From positions 310,001 through 374,000 of the forward strand of contig NZ_CP091138.1 in assembly GCF_021582875.1 (NCBI RefSeq): a stretch of DNA of 64,000 nucleotides, given 5' to 3'. The notes under the pieces are model-generated. The model saw nothing but the letters and a program-made list of their open reading frames with translations, was not told the DNA's origin and searched no databases. The position numbers and the translations under genes are program-made. Positions 3,019 to 62,866 of this stretch are shown piece by piece. Origin of the DNA: Microbacterium sp. KUDC0406. GTDB lineage: Bacteria > Actinomycetota > Actinomycetes > Actinomycetales > Microbacteriaceae. Every line of letters starts with the position of its first letter. Position 1 is the stretch's first letter.

Positions 3019-4443
3019 GTGACTCTCCGCCTGTACGACACCCGCGCTCAGCAGCTGCGCGACTTCGTCCCTCTCGACTCCGAGAACGTGACGATGTACG
3101 TCTGCGGGCCGACCGTGCAGTCCGGGCCCCACATCGGGCATGTCCGGGGAGCGCTGAGCTTCGACATCCTGCGCCGCTGGCTCGGCCGGCGGTACGGGAG
3201 GGTCACGCTGGTGCGCAACGTCACCGACATCGACGACAAGATCCTCGTGAACGGCACGGATGCCGAGCCGTGGTGGGCGCTGGCCTACCGCATGGAGAAG
3301 GAGTTCACGGCGGCGTACGAGGCCGTCGGCATCCTTCCGCCGACGTACGAACCCCGGGCGACCGGGTTCATCCCGCAGATGCACGAGCTCATCGAGCGGC
3401 TCATCGAACGCGGGCACGCCTACCCGGCGCCGGACGGATCCGGCGACGTCTACTTCGACGTGCGCTCCTGGCCCGACTACGGCGACCTGACCCATCAGTC
3501 TCCGGATGCCATGGAACCACAGGAAGACTGGGTCCCTGAGCCTGTCGAAGGGCCGCGCGGCAAGCGCGCGCCGCAGGACTTCGCACTGTGGAAGGGCGCC
3601 AAGCCGGGAGAGCCTGCGGACGCCACCTGGGACTCGCCCTGGGGTCCGGGGCGCCCGGGATGGCACATCGAGTGCTCGGCGATGTCGCGGCGCTATCTCG
3701 GCGCCGAGTTCGACATCCACGGCGGCGGTCTCGACCTGCGCTTCCCGCACCACGAGAACGAGCTCGCGCAGTCCACCGCGGCCGGCGACGGCTTCGCGCG
3801 GTACTGGGTGCACAACGGCCTGGTCACGGTCGACGGTCAGAAGATGTCGAAGTCGGTCGGCAACTTCACGCTGGCCGCGGACGTGCTCGCGAAGCACGAC
3901 CCGCTGGTGGTGCGCTACGCACTCGCCGCCGCGCATTACCGGTCGAGTCTCGATCTCAGCGACTCGTCCTTCGCTGAGGCCGAGGCGGCACTCGGACGCA
4001 TCAGGACGTTCCTCGCGACAATGTCGCGGGTGGCCGATCCGGAGCTTGTGCCCACGCTGCCCGCCGCGTTCGCTGCGGCGTTGGATGATGACCTGAACGT
4101 TCCACGGGCACTCGCGGTTCTTCACGAGACGATCCGCGCTGGCAACAGCGCGTATGACTGGTCAGGAGATCCGAGCACTGAGCTGGAGCACTTCGTGGCC
4201 GATGTTCTCGGTATGACCACCGTGCTGGGCATCAACCCGCTCTCGCCCGAGTGGCAGACCGGAAGCACCGGCGCCGAGGCATCCGCCCTGGATGCCCTGG
4301 TGCGCACGATGATCGACCAGCGCGCGCAGGCGCGCGCTGACAAGGACTGGACCTCGGCCGATCGCATCCGCGATGCGATCGCCGCCGCAGGCATCACTCT
4401 GGAGGACACTCCGGACGGAACGCATTGGAGCATCGATGGCTAA
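3019..4443 (+). CDS. cysS: Cysteinyl-tRNA synthetase
   Basis: 474 residues, class I aminoacyl-tRNA synthetase charging tRNA-Cys in the cytoplasm. Motifs seen: [16 protein letters not shown] (zinc-ligand Cys and HIGH) near residue 30, the central zinc region WHIECSAMS with [15 protein letters not shown], and KMSKSVGNF. Length is normal. Odd feature: just before the conserved [13 protein letters not shown] region there is an in-frame VPEPVEGP peptide. It is encoded by a copy of the dispersed repeat GGTCCCTGAGCCTGTCGAAG (3531-3554) and looks like a later insertion in a surface loop. The stop overlaps the start of the downstream methyltransferase by 8 nt, so the two genes are coupled. Confidence 0.97.
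3531..3554 (+). repeat. Dispersed repeat (GAGCCTGTCGAAG family) inside cysS
   Basis: 24-bp copy, GGTCCCTGAGCCTGTCGAAG plus GGCC, read in frame as VPEPVEG. Related copies are in hutH, hutU (two) and the DUF445 gene. Confidence 0.8.
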
Positions 4444-15454: not shown

Positions 15455-15469
15455 GAGTCGGGTCAAGGT

Positions 15470-15493
15470 TGAGCGAGCGAAGCGAGTCGAAAC
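15470..15493 (+). repeat. Dispersed repeat (GTTGAGCGAG family) after groL
   Basis: GTTGAGCGAGCGAAGCGAG followed by TCGAAAC. Same family as the copies at 2842, 21288 and in hutI. Confidence 0.7.
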
Positions 15494-15510
15494 CCTAGAC
15501 CGACACACAC

Positions 15511-53416: not shown

Positions 53417-54184
53417 TTAACGCACCCGTTTCGCCAGCAGGGCAGCGGCTTCGACGACGGCCCGTGCCGTGTGATCGGCGTCGACCGCAGCATCCGTCCA
53501 CGTCACCGCGATCGCCGCGACCGGCCAGCCGGCGTGATCGGTCACTGCCGCAGCGACCGATCGGAATCCCTCGGTGATCTCGCCGTCCTCCGTCGCGACG
53601 CCCGTCTGCCGCACGCTGCGAAGCAGCTCGCGCAGTTCGGAGGGCTTCTGGGGTCCGCGTCCGGTGCGCTCCGTGAAGGACGAGGCGTCGGGATACAGCG
53701 CGCGCACCTGCACCCTCGGCAGCGCGGCGAGCATCGCGCGCCCCGTCGCGGTCAGGTGCGCCGGAAGACGCACGCCGACATCCGTCACCAGCGCAGGCCG
53801 GCGCACGGCGCGCTCCTCGACGATGTACAGCACGTCCCGCCCGCTCATCACAGCGAGGTGAGCGCTCTCGCCGAGCCGGTCGGCGAGCCCCGCGACCAGC
53901 GGCCGTCCCAGGCGCGCCAGTGGCTCCTGTCTGGCATAGCCTCCGGCCAGTTCGAACGCGGACGTGCCGAGGCCCCACCGGTGATCCTGCGCGAGGTGCA
54001 CCACGAAACCGTGCTCCTCGAGCGTCGCCAGCAGATGGTAGATCGTCGACCGCTGGATGCCGAGATCCCGTGCCAGGGCGGATGCGGCGATCGGCGCCGG
54101 CCGGCGTGCGAGATGGCGCAGGATGCGCAGGGTCTGGTCCGCCGCGGGCACCTGTGCCCTTCGCTCCGAGTTGTCTGAGATCAC
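53417..54184 (-). CDS. IclR-family regulator, probable hut operon repressor
   Basis: 255 residues from GTG 54184. Winged helix AADQTLRILRHLARRPAPIAASALARDLGIQRSTIYHLLATLEEHGFVVH, then the effector domain with GRPLVAGLADRLGESAHLAVMSGRDVLYIVEERAV and HLTATGRAMLAAL...GPQKPSEL..., GVATEDGEITEGFRSVAAAVTDHAGWPVAAIAVTW. Divergent from hutHUIG, so it likely senses a histidine-pathway intermediate. A palindrome overlaps its start codon. Upstream in-frame codons exist, but this start is favoured because the family begins close to here. Confidence 0.9.
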   Translation of the reverse strand: MISDNSERRAQVPAADQTLRILRHLARRPAPIAASALARDLGIQRSTIYHLLATLEEHGFVVHLAQDHRWGLGTSAFELAGGYARQEPLARLGRPLVAGLADRLGESAHLAVMSGRDVLYIVEERAVRRPALVTDVGVRLPAHLTATGRAMLAALPRVQVRALYPDASSFTERTGRGPQKPSELRELLRSVRQTGVATEDGEITEGFRSVAAAVTDHAGWPVAAIAVTWTDAAVDADHTARAVVEAAALLAKRVR

Positions 54185-54190
54185 AGACAA
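54171..54190. promoter_or_regulatory. Palindrome over the IclR start codon (candidate operator)
   Basis: TTGTCTGAGATCACAGACAA, 7-bp arms TTGTCTG/CAGACAA, in the divergent gap 60 bp before hutH. Position suits control of both units. Confidence 0.7.
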
Positions 54191-54242
54191 AGGATGCCAC
54201 ATCGCTCTGTTCCCACGGTGAGCGCAGGTGTGGAATCGAATC

Positions 54243-55799
54243 ATGCCCCAGAACTCCTCTGTCGTCGTCGGCGCCGCACCCCTCGCGCCGGCCGACGTCG
54301 TCGCCATCGCCCGTCATCACGCTCCTGTCGTCATCGACGAGGGCGCCCTCGGCCGCGTGGCGGAGTCGCGCCGGGTCATCGACGCGATGGCCGCCGACCC
54401 GGTGCCGCACTATGGCGTCTCGACCGGTTTCGGCGCTCTCGCCACGACCTTCATCGCCCCGGACCGCCGCCGCCAGCTGCAGGTCAGCCTGATCCGCTCG
54501 CACGCCGCAGGCACCGGCCCCGAGGTCGAGACCGAGGTCGTCCGCGCGCTGCAGCTGCTGCGCCTGCAGACCCTCGCCTCCGGCCGCACCGGCGTGCGCC
54601 CCGTCGTCGTGGAGACCTACGCGGCGATGCTCAACGCCGGCATCACGCCGCTGGTCCGCGAGTACGGCTCGCTGGGCTGCTCCGGCGACCTCGCGCCGCT
54701 CGCGCACGTCGCCCTGGCCGCCATGGGCGAGGGGGACGTCCGCGTCTGCGACCCCTTGACAGGCTCGGGGACCAGGATCCCGGCATCCGACGCCCTCGCC
54801 GACGCCGGCATCGTTCCGCTCGTGCTGGAGGAGAAAGAGGGCCTCGCCCTCATCAACGGCACCGATGGGATGCTGGGCATGCTCGTGCTCGCCCTGCACG
54901 ACCTCGAGATGCTGGTCACCACCGCCGACCTGTCCGCCGCGATGTCGATCGAGTCGCAGCTCGGCACCGATGCCGTGTTCGCAGAGGATCTCATGGCGCT
55001 GCGTCCGCAGGTCGGCCAGGCTGCGTCTGCTGCCAACCTGCGCGCGTTCCTCGGGAACTCGCCCATGGTCGCCAGCCACAAGGGACCGGACGACGGTCGG
55101 GTGCAGGACGCCTACTCGCTGCGCTGCTCGCCGCAGGTGCACGGCGCCGCCCGCGACACCATGGCGCACGCCACCATGATCGCCGAGCGCGAGCTCGCCT
55201 CGGTCGTCGACAACCCCGTCGTCACCGTGGACGGACGCATCGAGTCCAACGGCAACTTCCACGGTGCGCCCGTCGCCGCCGTGCTCGACTTCCTCGCGAT
55301 CTCGGTCGCCGATGTGGCATCCGTCTCGGAGCGCCGCACCGACCGCGCCCTCGACCCGGCGCGCAGCCACGGGCTGCCGCCCTTCCTCGCCTCCGAGGTG
55401 GGCGTCGACTCCGGTCTGATGATCGCACAGTACGCCGCGGCCGGCATCGTGTCCGAGCTGAAGCGTCTCGCCGCCCCGGCATCCGTCGACTCGATCCCGT
55501 CGTCGGCGATGCAGGAGGACCATGTCTCGATGGGCTGGGCCGCCGGCCGCAAGCTCCGTCGCGCGATCGACGGGCTCGCCCGCGTGCTCGCGATCGAGAT
55601 CCTCACCGGCGCTCGTGCCCTCGACCTGCGTGCCCCGCTCGTCGCAGGACCCGCGACCGGCGCGGTGCGCGACCTGGTCCGCACCGTCGCCGGCGGCCCC
55701 GGCCCCGACCGGTTCCTCTCGCCCGAGATGGAAGCCGTCACCGAACTCGTCATCTCGGGCGCCGTCGCCCGCACCGCCAAGGAGAACGCGAATGTCTGA
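54243..55799 (+). CDS. hutH: Histidine ammonia-lyase
   Basis: 518 residues from ATG 54243 (a GTG at 54228 is an alternative). The MIO-forming triad is in [15 protein letters not shown], so the tripeptide reads Cys-Ser-Gly in place of Ala-Ser-Gly. [11 protein letters not shown] (Tyr site region), [29 protein letters not shown] and [18 protein letters not shown] complete it. Converts histidine to urocanate. A degenerate dispersed repeat (54753-54773) encodes the DPLTGSGT loop. Stop overlaps the hutU start by 8 nt. Confidence 0.96.
54753..54773 (+). repeat. Degenerate dispersed repeat inside hutH
   Basis: CCCTTGACAGGCTCGGGGAC plus C, a diverged CTTCGACAGGCTCAG copy. Confidence 0.55.
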
Positions 55800-57516
55800 C
55801 ACTTCGACAAGCTCAGTGACCCGGCCGGGCAACGGCCCCACTCTGCACGACCCGTCCCGCAGCATCCGTGCCCCGCGCGGCAACGAGCGCACCGCGAAGA
55901 GCTGGGGCGCCGAGGCGGCCAAGCGGATGCTGATGAACAATCTCGACGCAGAGGTCGCCGAGCACCCCGAAGACCTCGTGGTCTACGGCGGCACCGGCCG
56001 CGCCGCGCGCTCGTGGGAGGCGTACGACGCGATCGTGCGCACCCTCGACGAGCTCGAGCCCGACGAGACCCTGCTCGTGCAGTCCGGCAAGCCGGTCGGG
56101 GTGTTCCGCACCAACGAGTGGGCGCCGCGCGTGCTGATCGCCAACTCCAACCTGGTCGGCGACTGGGCCACCTGGCCGGAGTTCCGCAGGCTCGAGGAGC
56201 TCGGGTTGATGATGTACGGCCAGATGACGGCCGGCTCCTGGATCTACATCGGCACGCAGGGCATCCTGCAGGGCACCTACGAGACCTTCGCCGCCGTCGC
56301 TCGCTCGCTCGGCGCTTCGACAGGCTCAGCGACCCGATCCCTCAAGGGAACGCTCACTCTCACAGCCGGGGCCGGCGGCATGGGCGGCGCCCAGCCGCTC
56401 GCCGTCACGCTGAACGAGGGCGCTGTGCTGATCGTCGATGTCGACGAGACTCGGCTGTCGCGCCGCGTCGACCACGGCTACCTGGACCTCTACTGCACCG
56501 ATCTCGATGAGGCCGTCACCCGCGCGGTCGCCGCGAAGGATGCCGGGGAGGCGCTGTCCGTCGGCATCGTCGGCAACGCCGCCGAGGTGTTCCCCGAGCT
56601 GCTGCGTCGCGGCGTGCCGATCGACATCGTCACCGACCAGACCAGCGCGCACGACCCGCTCGCCTACCTGCCGATCGGCATCACCGTCGAGGACTGGAAG
56701 GCCGAGGCGGAGCGCGACCCGGAGGAGTTCACCCGTCGCTCGCGCGATTCGATGGCCGCGCACGTCGCCGCGATGGTCGCATTCCAGGATGCCGGTGCCG
56801 CCGTGTTCGACTACGGCAACTCGATCCGCGCCGAGGCTGCGCTTGGCGGCTTCGATCGCGCCTTCGAGTTCCCCGGCTTCGTGCCGGCGTACATCCGGCC
56901 GCAGTTCGAGGAGGGCCGCGGCCCGTTCCGCTGGGCGGCGCTCTCCGGCGACCCGGAGGACATCTACAAGACCGACCGCGCCATCGCCGAGCTGTTCCCC
57001 GAGGACGAGGCCCTGCACCGCTGGCTGGAGAAGGCGGGCGAGAAGGTGCACTTCGAGGGACTGCCCGCGCGCATCTGCTGGCTGGGGTACAAGGAGCGCC
57101 ACCTGGCGGGCCTGAAGTTCAACGAGATGGTCGCCTCGGGCGAGCTGTCCGCACCGATCGTCATCGGCCGCGACCACCTGGACTCGGGCTCCGTCGCGAG
57201 TCCGTACCGCGAGACCGAGGCCATGAAGGACGGCTCCGACGCGATCGCCGACTGGCCGCTGCTGAACGCGCTGCTCAACACCGCATCCGGCGCCAGCTGG
57301 GTGTCGCTGCACCACGGCGGCGGCGTCGGCATCGGCCGCTCCATCCACGCCGGTCAGGTCACCGTCGCCGACGGCTCCGAGCTGGCTGCGGAGAAGCTCG
57401 AGCGCGTGTTGACCAACGACCCGGGCACCGGGGTGATGCGGCACGTCGACGCGGGGTACGACCACGCCAAGGACGTCGCGCGCGAGCGCGGCCTCACGGT
57501 GCCGATGGGGCTCTGA
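55792..57516 (+). CDS. hutU: Urocanate hydratase
   Basis: 574 residues. [99 protein letters not shown] (NAD site), [44 protein letters not shown]. Adds water to urocanate. Odd: two dispersed repeats sit in frame. One is 10 nt after the start ([10 protein letters not shown]). The other is inside the conserved core ([15 protein letters not shown] just before TLTLTAG), where the family normally has a shorter linker. Overlaps hutH by 8 nt and hutI by 1. Confidence 0.96.
55802..55821 (+). repeat. Dispersed repeat at the 5' end of hutU
   Basis: CTTCGACAAGCTCAGTGACC, in frame, 10 nt past the start codon. Confidence 0.8.
56315..56334 (+). repeat. Dispersed repeat in the core of hutU
   Basis: CTTCGACAGGCTCAGCGACC, in frame, encoding STGSATR-type residues. 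Confidence 0.8.
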
Positions 57517-58712
57517 TGTCCATCCTCATCACGAACATCGGCGAGCTGACGACCAACGTTCCCGCCGGCGAAGACCGGCTGGGCACCCGGCACGACGCGG
57601 CGGTACTGATCGAGGACGGCAGGATCGCGTGGGCGGGGGCCTCGGAGGAGGCTGAGGGCGTTTCGTCTCGCTTCGCTCGGTCAACGACCGAAGAAGTCGA
57701 CGTCGTGGATGCCGGTGGCGGCGCCGTCATCCCCGGTTTCGTGGACAGCCACAGCCACCTCGTGTTCGGCGGTGACCGTGCCGCGGAGTTCGAGGCCCGA
57801 ATGGCCGGCCAGAAGTACGCCGCCGGCGGCATCCGCTCGACCGTCGCGGCGACGCGCGCCGCCACCGATGACGAGCTGCGGGAACGGCTTCGCGGATTCG
57901 TTCACGAGATGCGCGCCCAGGGCACCACAACCGTCGAGATCAAGAGCGGCTACGGACTCGATGTGGCGACCGAGGAGCGCCTGGTGCGCCTGGCATCCGA
58001 GGTGACGCCGGAGGTGACCTTTCTCGGTGCGCACGTCGTGCCGGCCGAGTACGCCGAGAGAGCCGACGAGTACGTCGACCTCGTCGTGGGGGAGATGCTG
58101 GATGCCTGCGCGCCGCACGCCCGCTGGATCGACGTGTTCTGCGAGACCGGTGCCTTCACCGTCGCGCAGTCCCGGCGCGTGCTCGAGGCGGGCATCGCCC
58201 GAGGTCTGAGGCCGCGGGTGCACGCCAGTCAGCTCGGCCCGGGGGAGGGCGTGCGGATGGCGGTAGAGCTGGGCGCGGCATCCGTCGACCACGGCACGTA
58301 CCTGACCGATGCCGACGTCGCGGCGCTCGCCGCGAGCGACACGGTGCTCACGCTGCTGCCCGGCGTGGAGTTCTCCACCCGGCAGCCGTACCCGGACGCC
58401 CGCCGGCTGATCGATGCCGGAGTGACCGTCGCGATCGCCTGCGACACCAACCCGGGGTCGAGCTTCACGAGTTCGATGCCGTTCTGCATCGCCGTCGCGG
58501 TGCGCGACATGCGGATGACGGTGGCCGAGGCGGTCTGGGCGGCGACGGCCGGGGGAGCGGCGGCCCTGCAGCGCGATGACATCGGAGCGATCGCTCCGGG
58601 CATGCGCGCCGACCTGGTCCTGCTCGATTCGCCGACCCGGGTGCACCTCGCCTACCGGCCCGGTGTCCCGCTCGTGAAGCAGGTCTGGAAGGACGGGGCC
58701 GCGACGCTCTGA
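57516..58712 (+). CDS. hutI: Imidazolonepropionase
   Basis: 398 residues. [18 protein letters not shown] (metal HxH), [46 protein letters not shown]: the metal-dependent hydrolase motifs of HutI. Opens imidazolone to formiminoglutamate. ATG shares a base with the hutU stop (TGATG). An in-frame GTTTCGTCTCGCTTCGCTCG repeat copy (57660-57690) adds [10 protein letters not shown] in a loop near residue 50. Confidence 0.96.
57660..57690 (-). repeat. Dispersed repeat (GTTGAGCGAG family) inside hutI
   Basis: GTTTCGTCTCGCTTCGCTCG followed by GTCAACGACC, the inverse orientation of the 2842 and 15470 copies. Confidence 0.8.
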
Positions 58713-58746
58713 GCGGCGCTCGTCTCCCATCCGACGAAGGAGAACC

Positions 58747-59634
58747 ATGGCACTCTCGCACGACGACCTCTGGCCCCGCGCCGGTGGCTGGCCGGTGTTC
58801 GACGGCACCGCCGACGCCGTACTGCTCGGGATCCCCGCCTGGCGGTCGTCGCTCTCACCCACCGGCGCGCACGCCACCCCGGCCGCGGTGCGCGAAGCAC
58901 TGCAGCGCTACAGCGCGACCCTGATGACCAGTCCACCGCTCGACCTGAACGCCGCACTGCGCATCGCCGATGCCGGTGACGTGACAGAACCGGACGGGGA
59001 AGAGGGCGTCGAGCGGGCAGTGGCGCGCGTCGCAGAGCTCGCCGCGGCCGTCGATCTCACGATCGCGATCGGCGGCGACAACTCCGTGACCTACGCGGCT
59101 GCCCGCGGATCGCGGGCAGACGGGCTGATCACGATCGACGCGCACTTCGACCTGCGCGACGGCGTCTCCAACGGATCTCCGGTCCGGCGGCTCGTGGAGG
59201 ACGCCCCGGAGCCGATCGACCCCGCCCGCATCGTGCAGATCGGGATCGCCGACTTCGCGAACTCGGCCGCCTACGCCCGGCGGGCGGCGGACTGGGGCAT
59301 TCGGGTGATCACCCTCGACGAGCTCCGCCGGCGAGGGATCGAGGACATCGCCGCGGAAGCGCTGGAGATCGCGGGCGCCGGATCCCGCATCCACTTCGAC
59401 ATCGATGTGGACGCCTGCGACCGGTCCGTCGCCCCCGGGTGCCCTGCGAGCGTCCCCGGAGGGCTCGCCGCCTGGGAGCTGCGCGCGCTGACGCGTCGGA
59501 TCGCCGCGGACCGCCGGGTGATCAGCGCGGACATCGCCGAGGTCGATGCGACAGCGGACACCGAGGATGCCAGGACCGTGCGCCTCGCGGCGCTGTGCGT
59601 GCTCGAACTGCTCGCAGGCCTCGCCGCGCGCTGA
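58747..59634 (+). CDS. hutG: Formimidoylglutamase
   Basis: 295 residues of the arginase/agmatinase fold. Manganese motifs GGDNSVTYAA, TIDAHFDLRD, and HFDIDVDACDRSVAPGCPASVPGGL, with SADIAEVDA. Splits formiminoglutamate to glutamate and formamide, the last step of the four-gene route. AAGGAGAACC ribosome-binding site; 34 nt after hutI. Confidence 0.93.
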   Translation: MALSHDDLWPRAGGWPVFDGTADAVLLGIPAWRSSLSPTGAHATPAAVREALQRYSATLMTSPPLDLNAALRIADAGDVTEPDGEEGVERAVARVAELAAAVDLTIAIGGDNSVTYAAARGSRADGLITIDAHFDLRDGVSNGSPVRRLVEDAPEPIDPARIVQIGIADFANSAAYARRAADWGIRVITLDELRRRGIEDIAAEALEIAGAGSRIHFDIDVDACDRSVAPGCPASVPGGLAAWELRALTRRIAADRRVISADIAEVDATADTEDARTVRLAALCVLELLAGLAAR

Positions 59635-61569: not shown

Positions 61570-62866
61570 TCACACCGGGATCACGGCATGCGCGACCGCG
61601 AAGATCGCGAGACCCGCGAGAGCGCCGACGACGGTGCCGTTCAAGCGGATGTACTGCAGGTCACGGCCGACCATGAGCTCGATCTTCTCGGTGGTCTCGG
61701 CGGGATCCCAGCGCTCGATGGTGTCGGTGATGATCGACGCGATGTCGTGCCGGTAGCGGTCGACGGCGAAGACCGCGGCGTCGGTCACCCACCCGTCCAC
61801 GCGGCGCTGCAGGGCGGCATCCGTCGTCAGCCTCGTGCCGATGTCGGCGATGGCCGACGCCGCCCTGGTGCGCAGCCCGCTGTGCGGGTCGTCCAGCGCG
61901 TGGATCAGCCCGGTCTTCGCGGCCTGCCACGTCTCGGCCGCGAGGGCGGCGACGCGCGGGCTGTCGAACAGCCCGGCCTTGGCGTTCTCCAGCCGCGTGC
62001 GCATGGACGGATCGTGCTGCAGACGGTCGGCGAGGCGGGTGAGGTAGCCGTCGATCGCGATCCGGGCCGGATGCCGGGGATCGGCCTGGACGGCGTGTGC
62101 GAACTTCACGGCCTCGCGATAGACCGTCTCGTCCACCATCCGATGCCCGATGGACGGCACCCAGGATGGCAGGCGCCGCGACACCAGACCTCGGAACGCC
62201 TGCGCGTTCGCATCGAGCCAGGTCACGATGCTGTCCACAGCGAGATCGACGGCGCCGTGGTGCGCGCCGGAGTCGACGATGCGCTCGAGCCATGCCCCGG
62301 CGGGTGGCCCCCATTCCGGATCGACCAGATGCTGGCGCGCGAGGTCGGCGATCACGTCGCGGACGTCGTCGTCGCTCAGCGCGTGCAGCACGGCGGTCGC
62401 GACCGTCGCCCCCTCCGGCGGCGACGCGCTCCGCGTGCGTCTGGGTCGCGGAGCCCGTCGAAGGGTCGCTCAGCCATTCGCCGAGACGCCGCGCGACCTC
62501 GGTCTGCTCCAGCTTGGTGCGCACGACCTCGCCGGAGAGGAAGTTCGTCTCCACGAACTCGCCCAGGCTGCGTCCGATCTCGTCCTTTCGGTTCGGGATG
62601 ATCGCGGTGTGCGGGATCGGCAGGCCGAGCGGATGCCGGAACAGTGCGGTGACTGCGAACCAGTCCGCCAGGGCGCCGACCATGCCGCCCTCGGCCGCGG
62701 CCCGCACGTACGCGAGCCACGGCAAGCGCTCCTGGAACGCGAACGCGAAGACGAACGCGACGGCCATGAACAGGAGCGCGCCCAGCGCGACGGCCTTCAT
62801 CAGCCGCAGACCGCGCAGCCGCTCCTGATCGGCGGCGGACAGCTCCGCCATCGGGGTACGCGACAT
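61570..62866 (-). CDS. DUF445 membrane protein (frameshifted)
   Basis: About 431 residues after repair. N-terminal helix (LMKAVALGALLFMAVAFVFAFAF), YVRAAAEGGMVGALADWFAVTALFRHPLGLPIPHTAIIPNRKDEIGRSLGEFVETNFLS (DUF445 signature), a long helical middle, and a C-terminal helix (LNGTVVGALAGLAIFAVAHAV). One base is surplus in 62409-62420; removal gives VAAEGATVATAVLHALSDDD. A dispersed repeat (62444-62464) encodes LSDPSTGSATQ just before the break. Function unknown; membrane or envelope. Confidence 0.87.
62444..62464 (-). repeat. Dispersed repeat inside the DUF445 gene
   Basis: GGTCGCGGAGCCCGTCGAAG plus G; diverged copy of the cysS/hutU repeat. Confidence 0.65.

Follow-up and report, generated by a model that had tools for sequence, protein, structure and literature searches.

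Short REP-type hairpin elements in frame inside histidine-utilisation and other genes of a Microbacterium chromosome

The histidine-utilisation (hut) operon considered here lies in a stretch of 64,000 nucleotides, hereafter the window, which corresponds to positions 310001-374000 of the single-contig, 3.61-Mb chromosome of a Microbacterium. Three of its enzymes, as well as cysS and a DUF445 gene in the same window, carry within their reading frames copies of two kinds of short dispersed repeat, called here family 1 and family 2, which are described below as repetitive extragenic palindromic (REP) elements. The hut genes, the arginase-family gene, the IclR regulator, cysS and the DUF445 gene were identified by Pfam, and the hut locus is composed as follows.

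53417..54307, minus strand: IclR-family regulator (PF01614, PF09339), divergent from the hut operon
54228..55799, plus strand: hutH, aromatic amino acid lyase family (PF00221)
55792..57516, plus strand: hutU, urocanase (PF17391, PF01175, PF17392)
57516..58712, plus strand: hutI, imidazolonepropionase-like amidohydrolase (PF01979)
58747..59634, plus strand: arginase-family protein (PF00491), probably a later step of the hut operon

The likely start codon of hutU, ATG 55792, overlaps the end of hutH, whose stop codon occupies 55797-55799, and the best-matching named relatives of the window HutU are Microbacterium. A sequence-only reading of the window had pointed to near-identical repeat copies in hutH, hutU, hutI, cysS and the DUF445 gene; all of these were confirmed, as were the in-frame translations proposed for HutU, HutI, HutH and CysS. 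The copies are listed below.

56313..56336, plus strand: family 1, inside hutU, exact core at 56315-56329; reads ASTGSATR, net gain of six residues over most relatives
55800..55823, plus strand: family 1, exact core, a few codons after the hutU ATG 55792; reads TSTSSVTR
54753..54775, plus strand: family 1, degenerate, in hutH, 3 edits from the 25-nt consensus; reads PLTGSGTR, the weakest of the copies
57658..57689, minus strand: family 2, in hutI, 2 edits from the 32-nt consensus; up to 11 residues beyond relatives
3529..3552, minus strand: family 1, antisense to cysS, 0 edits from the 25-nt consensus; reads WVPEPVEG, net gain of six residues
62442..62465, minus strand: family 1, in frame in the DUF445 gene, 2 core mismatches; reads PSTGSATQ, net gain of seven residues
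2913..2945, minus strand: family 2, 2 edits from the consensus, among GTTGAGCGAG cores at 2847, 2932 and 2981
15461..15495, plus strand: family 2, 4 edits from the consensus

The alignment with relatives that the sequence-only reading had proposed shows most of them to be without the extra residues, the relatives compared being other species and the orthologue checks being limited to window genes. For the internal HutU copy, 39 of 46 relatives' rows are six residues shorter, one is four shorter and six are equal or longer; the loop of close relatives reads SLGKESLKG or SLGRDSLKG, six residues under that of the window HutU. The insert residues are also missing from the urocanase of PDB 2fkn, presumably that of Bacillus subtilis. 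Among the equal or longer loops, one (L033) has an exact copy of the family 1 core at this site and another (L126) a decayed-looking copy (ASQGSAT). Those of L037, L038, L128 and L137 are long without a clear repeat origin, the last being encoded by repeated GGCAGGCTCG-type units, and in Arthrobacter relatives an equally long loop is made from DNA other than the repeat. In an AlphaFold2 model of HutU (23-sequence alignment; mean predicted local distance difference test score 78, about 66 in the block 161-170), residues 164-171 fall at the end of helix 144-166 and in the loop that precedes strand 177-181, which leads on to the GGMGG motif. At the hutU start, where the gene overlaps hutH, the copy makes the N terminus longer; two relatives (L113 and L115) have a short MSEPTLHDP against the longer, 21-residue stretch found here, and other relatives vary.

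Similarly, CysS reads DWVPEPVEG here and is six residues shorter in both relatives whose cysS could be compared (G021 and G014), and five of the insert residues are missing from the CysS of PDB 1li5. In the DUF445 gene, the stretch DPSTGSATQTHAERV is seven residues shorter in seven of eight relatives' rows and aligns gap-free in the remaining one (L037). That this copy is in frame, as the sequence-only reading had it, holds, but the reading frame of the gene (61570-62866) switches a few dozen bases downstream of it; the gene is thus split over two frames, which may mean inactivity or an error of the assembly at the switch. Within the 44 rows of the HutI loop, near-identical DNA occurs in L134 and a more altered version in L133, with none in the other 42, several of which carry other long loops. 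The HutH loop is 4 to 6 residues shorter in 36 of 40 rows, and in L133 the loop that holds the degenerate copy here contains an exact family 1 core, read in a different frame (LRQAQ). In Microbacterium allomyrinae (L038) the same HutH and HutI loops are 56 and 32 residues longer than here.

Because most relatives are without them, the extra residues of HutU, CysS, DUF445 and HutI are insertions. All of the tested in-gene copies sit in variable loops or at a terminus, and a few other species have copies in the same HutU, HutH or HutI loops. The sequence-only reading had held that finding the residues in homologues encoded by unrelated DNA would speak against insertion. Most relatives do not have them at all, but some have equally long loops without the repeat (HutU, HutI), so the affected loops seem to tolerate length change in general, and not to be lengthened by the repeat alone.

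A count of copies in the whole genome, also proposed beforehand, lies far above background. The family 1 core, CTTCGACA(A/G)GCTCAG, is present in 190 exact copies (105 and 85 by strand; none for the reversed pattern) and in 276 copies with at most one mismatch, against 2 for the reversed pattern, and the family 2 13-mer GTCGTTGAGCGAG in 327 exact copies against 0. Within the window, exact family 1 cores lie at 3536 (minus, cysS), 55802 (plus, hutU start) and 56315 (plus, hutU), and two-mismatch matches at 62449 (minus, DUF445) and 32009 (plus); by chance, the pattern with up to two mismatches is expected 0.28 times on average, with a maximum of 2 in 100 shuffles. In addition, dinucleotide shuffles of the window gave no family 1 match in 25 shuffles at limits of 3 to 5 edits and no family 2 match in 8 shuffles at 6 or 7 edits, the counts of this search for the real window being lower bounds, as its mode missed 55802 and 62449. 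The bare decamer GTTGAGCGAG, one mismatch allowed, exceeds chance only weakly in the window, with 15 places where shuffles average 8 and where 2 shuffles in 100 give 15 or more.

The family 1 core is the inner part of a potential hairpin of 24 nt, whose stem of 4+2 bp is interrupted by a GA bulge and whose GGGT tag is left unpaired. Written tag-first, the consensus of 72 exact copies of this genome is TGGGT-C-N-CTGAGC(C/T)TGTCGAAG-N'-G, in which CNCT can pair with AGN'G and GA with TC, a GA dinucleotide is bulged, and the loop is GCCTG or GCTTG. The N/N' pair, which adjoins the core, is Watson-Crick in 63 of the 72 copies (CG 33, GC 27, AT 3) and G-T in a further 4. The same is seen one pair further out in another genome, G063, where 78 copies include 40 with CG and 35 with GC, and where the outer stem is mostly CCCT (40) or GGCT (31), each with its matching complement. 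The outer stem pairs covary; that is, changes in the stem compensate each other. Across three genomes, positions -4 and -5, in the tag, are G in 0.89-1.00 of copies and position -3 is T in 0.78-0.93. The elements of G063, unlike those of this genome, have an AGGT tag and in many copies an extended stem; the tag T is paired with A in 42 of 78, and part of the tag may there join the stem.

More generally, a search of 864 kb of this genome for the plan GGT-N4-GA-loop-TCGA-N'4 (loop 3-18) gave 58 matches, whereas a shuffled form of the plan gave 1 and forms with changed bulges gave 0 and 1. The stems of the matches are CCCT, CGCT, CGTT, CACT, TGCT and TCCT, plus three single ones, and 45 of the 58 matches have a GCCTG or GCTTG loop, those of family 2 being long. 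Family 2 follows the plan GGT-CGTT-GA-(long loop)-TC-GA-AACG. Since tag, stem size and bulge are common to both, the two families, taken as separate in the sequence-only reading, look instead like branches of one kind of element. We infer this kinship; CGTT stems make up only 4 of the 58 matches, since many family 2 copies do not have a perfect inner pair. These are REP-type elements: a short hairpin is present in many near-identical dispersed copies with a conserved unpaired tag at one end, and inverted pairs like those of BIMEs or REPINs occur. Among 34 pairs of neighbours within 120 bp, 17 are inverted (14 with the tags inside, 3 facing away) and 17 are direct; 12 of the 14 tags-inside pairs are 29-36 bp apart, many direct repeats are spaced at 17, 18 or 21 bp, and 70 of 128 copies are single.

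The exact family 1 core was found in 74 of 119 Microbacterium genomes, with a range of 0 to 559 copies, and the numbers of the two families vary separately (559 and 2 in G063, 0 and 179 in G008, 190 and 327 in this genome). Among Actinomycetota outside the genus the core is rare (16 of 245 genomes, at most 6 copies each), and 21 copies were found in an Anaerolineaceae genome. The inner hairpin of the element also occurs in other surroundings: in a Sphingobium and a Variovorax plasmid it follows GTTCG, and in a Pseudomonadota genome (L246) it stands behind a CCTC tag and a stem that starts with AT.

We propose, with a probability of about 0.8, that copies of a short REP-type hairpin have multiplied in this genome by insertion, the element being a passenger that has no gene of its own. 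An enzyme acting in trans on the tagged hairpin would copy it to further places, largely irrespective of whether these are coding; selection would then remove most genic insertions and keep those in tolerant loops or ends, favouring the orientation and frame in which the added peptide is short, flexible and made of Ser, Thr and Gly (PSTGSGT) or, in family 2, is VVERA. A Y1 (RAYT/IS200) transposase encoded in the same genome is probably not that enzyme. A Y1 transposase (RAYT-type, PF01797) was not found here by a search that was positive in 5 of 14 control genomes, and the only match among the 119 Microbacterium genomes is in G041, which has one core copy; a Y1 transposase was therefore rejected as the mobiliser. 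An IS110-type enzyme (PF01548) was likewise rejected: it is found in 24 of the 119 genomes, not including this one, and does not track copy number, being present in only 2 (G064 and G110) of the 12 genomes with at least 100 core copies. Spread by phages was also considered and rejected, as the 25 phage records (Caulobacter, Burkholderia, Mycobacterium, Pseudomonas and one other) include none of Microbacterium.

The element could also have spread without any dedicated enzyme, through replication template switching, or through repair or gene conversion via short matches like GACCC. The missing Y1 transposase, the direct orientation of half of the close pairs with their recurrent short spacings, and the GCGACCC that flanks the DUF445 copy on both sides would all suit such a process. 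Yet some species have hundreds of dispersed copies and their congeners few or none, which suggests an active process working in bursts, and the tag is conserved though it is unpaired; on these grounds enzyme-free spread is rather unlikely.

Genes were called by a codon model trained on the fetched stretches, and density was derived from copies with at most one mismatch in the window and two roughly evenly spaced sets of regions (854 kb in total, of which 81% is coding); a third set, whose regions had been picked from a list of plus-strand copies, was used for frames only and excluded from density. The 66 family 1 copies of the density sample comprise 27 inside genes, 11 inside genes within 20 codons of an end, 26 intergenic and 2 partial, corresponding to 55 per Mb of coding versus 158 per Mb of intergenic DNA; without the window, 36 of 63 copies are in genes, at 56 versus 177 per Mb. 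Coding DNA is about threefold depleted of copies, not devoid of them. In all 1.254 Mb, 128 family 1 copies are distributed as 45 internal, 14 terminal, 64 intergenic and 5 partial, and 166 family 2 copies (at most one mismatch) as 34 in genes, 113 intergenic and 19 partial. If the in-gene copies of both families were spread evenly, about 11 stretches of 6.2 kb would be expected to hold three or more, so that the four copies in the hut operon, which had seemed notable from the sequence alone, are ordinary. The hut operon was rejected as a special target, several copies per operon being unexceptional at this density. Elsewhere in this genome (L161, G000:C1:60001-80000), a called gene of 1610 codons carries eight family 1 copies in several frames and orientations, with tandem VPEPVEG and family 2 copies. 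In another region (L167:8340) and in G063 (L189:2362), what is seemingly the same gene (CQVDVG before the insert) has an in-frame family 1 copy at the same site.

The in-gene copies show a strong preference for one reading frame. Among 40 family 1 sense copies in 1.25 Mb, 34 read (P/A)STGS(G/A)T, 4 LRQAQ and 2 FDxLR; counted once per gene and frame, 29 of 34 are in the STGS frame (p about 6e-10). The 19 antisense copies divide into 12 in the EPVE frame and 7 in LSLSK, and 14 of 17 family 2 sense copies are in the VVERA frame. The idea that the elements insert in frames that avoid stops accounts for part of this: the consensus element is open in five of six frames, all three sense frames included, and has a stop in the sixth, yet a single sense frame holds most of the copies. 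Alternatively, the bias might reflect a target preferred in a given codon phase rather than selection on the peptide. Half of the sense copies (20 of 40) have GAC or GGC (GRC) upstream, and GRC is in that codon phase in 54% of cases in the genes of this genome; the STGS share after GRC, 18 of 20, nevertheless exceeds 54% (p 8e-4), and the same bias is seen without the trinucleotide (16 of 20, against 33% expected), so that we regard a codon-phase target as unlikely.

A further proposal would make the repeats signal sequences, namely DNA uptake or segregation motifs that arose by point mutation and are kept for recognition. DNA uptake sequences are not known to be length insertions, whereas the tested copies here are. 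Uptake sequences do resemble the present elements in being short, abundant and partly intragenic, and they too show an orientation bias inside genes (PMC2346458), but the hairpin stems covary here and strand counts per 600-kb bin are near even, except in one bin (21 plus, 5 minus) that is rich in regions chosen from the plus-strand list; this proposal is very improbable. It is scarcely credible that the residues are ancient functional protein parts with a chance likeness in DNA: some relatives do have equally long loops from unrelated DNA, but shuffles gave no matches, hundreds of copies lie elsewhere, and the closest relatives are without the residues, which are not conserved in close relatives for HutU, CysS, HutI and DUF445, HutH being the weakest case.

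Several observations weigh against the insertion model. No mobilising enzyme was found in a search that covered PF01797 and PF01548 only. There is no evident target-site duplication; a 3-bp duplication was rejected, a left GTC being matched by a right GTC in only 13 of 48 cases. Nor are the junctions exact to the base: the net lengths gained (18, 18 and 21 nt) agree with a unit of 21-24 nt only on the assumption that a few bases were lost or changed. The comparisons being between species, these alignments do not catch an insertion within one species. Many in-gene copies may be old, because mismatches are commoner in them (20 of 59) than in intergenic copies (7 of 64; p 0.002), and 14 of the 59 lie within 20 codons of a gene end, where in-house gene calls are least sure. 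The evenly spaced sets differ from each other, with 22 of 31 copies (window included) and 16 of 35 in genes, and the region-chosen set has 21 of 62. In G063, only 9 of 110 sampled copies are in genes and 100 are intergenic; in G029, 33 of 52 are intergenic, and the sense copies split into 9 STGS and 6 LRQAQ (9 of 15 in the STGS frame). Given these figures, the strength of the pattern differs by species, and this genome is at the strong end of the three looked at.

REPs inside reading frames have already been published. Di Nocera and colleagues described GTAG and CGTC REPs, many of them inside genes, and noted that the CGTC kind has no dedicated transposase and that bulged families were possibly missed by detection (PMC3733652); the present family fits the latter remark. 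It resembles the GTAG REPs and their RAYTs (REP-associated tyrosine transposases) in its hairpin of 20-40 nt, unpaired end tag, paired or clustered copies and uneven copy number between species, but its tag is GGGT (TGGGT) or AGGT, its stem is bulged, and the Y1 transposase is absent from this genome and from 118 of the 119 Microbacterium genomes searched. With CGTC REPs, for which no dedicated transposase is known, it shares intragenic copies, a 5-nt loop and inverted pairs whose tags lie inside; here, PF01797 and PF01548 were the two families searched. The family 1 loop is within the 4-5 nt of the CGTC kind, whereas in place of a CGTC, TGTC or CCTC tag and an 8-9-bp stem starting with AT there is GGGT and a bulged 6-bp stem, and direct repeats are as common as inverted pairs. 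Like the Rickettsia palindromic elements RPE-1, RPE-4 and RPE-6 (cited in PMC3733652), the repeats are palindromes found in many unrelated proteins, inserted in frame and absent from most of the orthologues compared for the window genes; they differ in being 24-32 nt long, in an actinobacterium, with a strong measured frame preference. A published parallel for recurrence at the same place exists in recB of two Xanthomonas species, and the word Actinobacteria was not found in the main text as available (PMC3733652). The core was not found in either orientation in the searched literature, which most subscription journals lie outside; the five encoded peptide words gave no related description there, and among the matches listed no title or abstract opening mentions a REP of Microbacterium. 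What the present family adds is its tag and bulge, its host group, a frame preference that has been quantified, and the fact that different species carry it in the same loops.

The hut enzymes most likely merely tolerate the added peptides, and no claim of a benefit to the host is made. More generally, the tolerance of proteins to a standard insert becomes readable from nature, with one element, many genes and a measurable frame selection. In predicted proteins of this group, PSTGSGT, VPEPVEG, LRQAQGP and VVERA can flag repeat insertions. Beside the CGTC REPs, these repeats are another abundant REP kind without a known transposase, which sharpens the question of what moves them. A bolder hypothesis, which we put forward only tentatively, is that of a mobile REP family moved by a non-Y1 enzyme and tuned for survivable insertion into genes, with five of six frames open and a Ser/Thr/Gly linker in the preferred one. 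If this were true, such a family would be a continuing source of in-frame loop insertions, gained independently at the same loops by different species.

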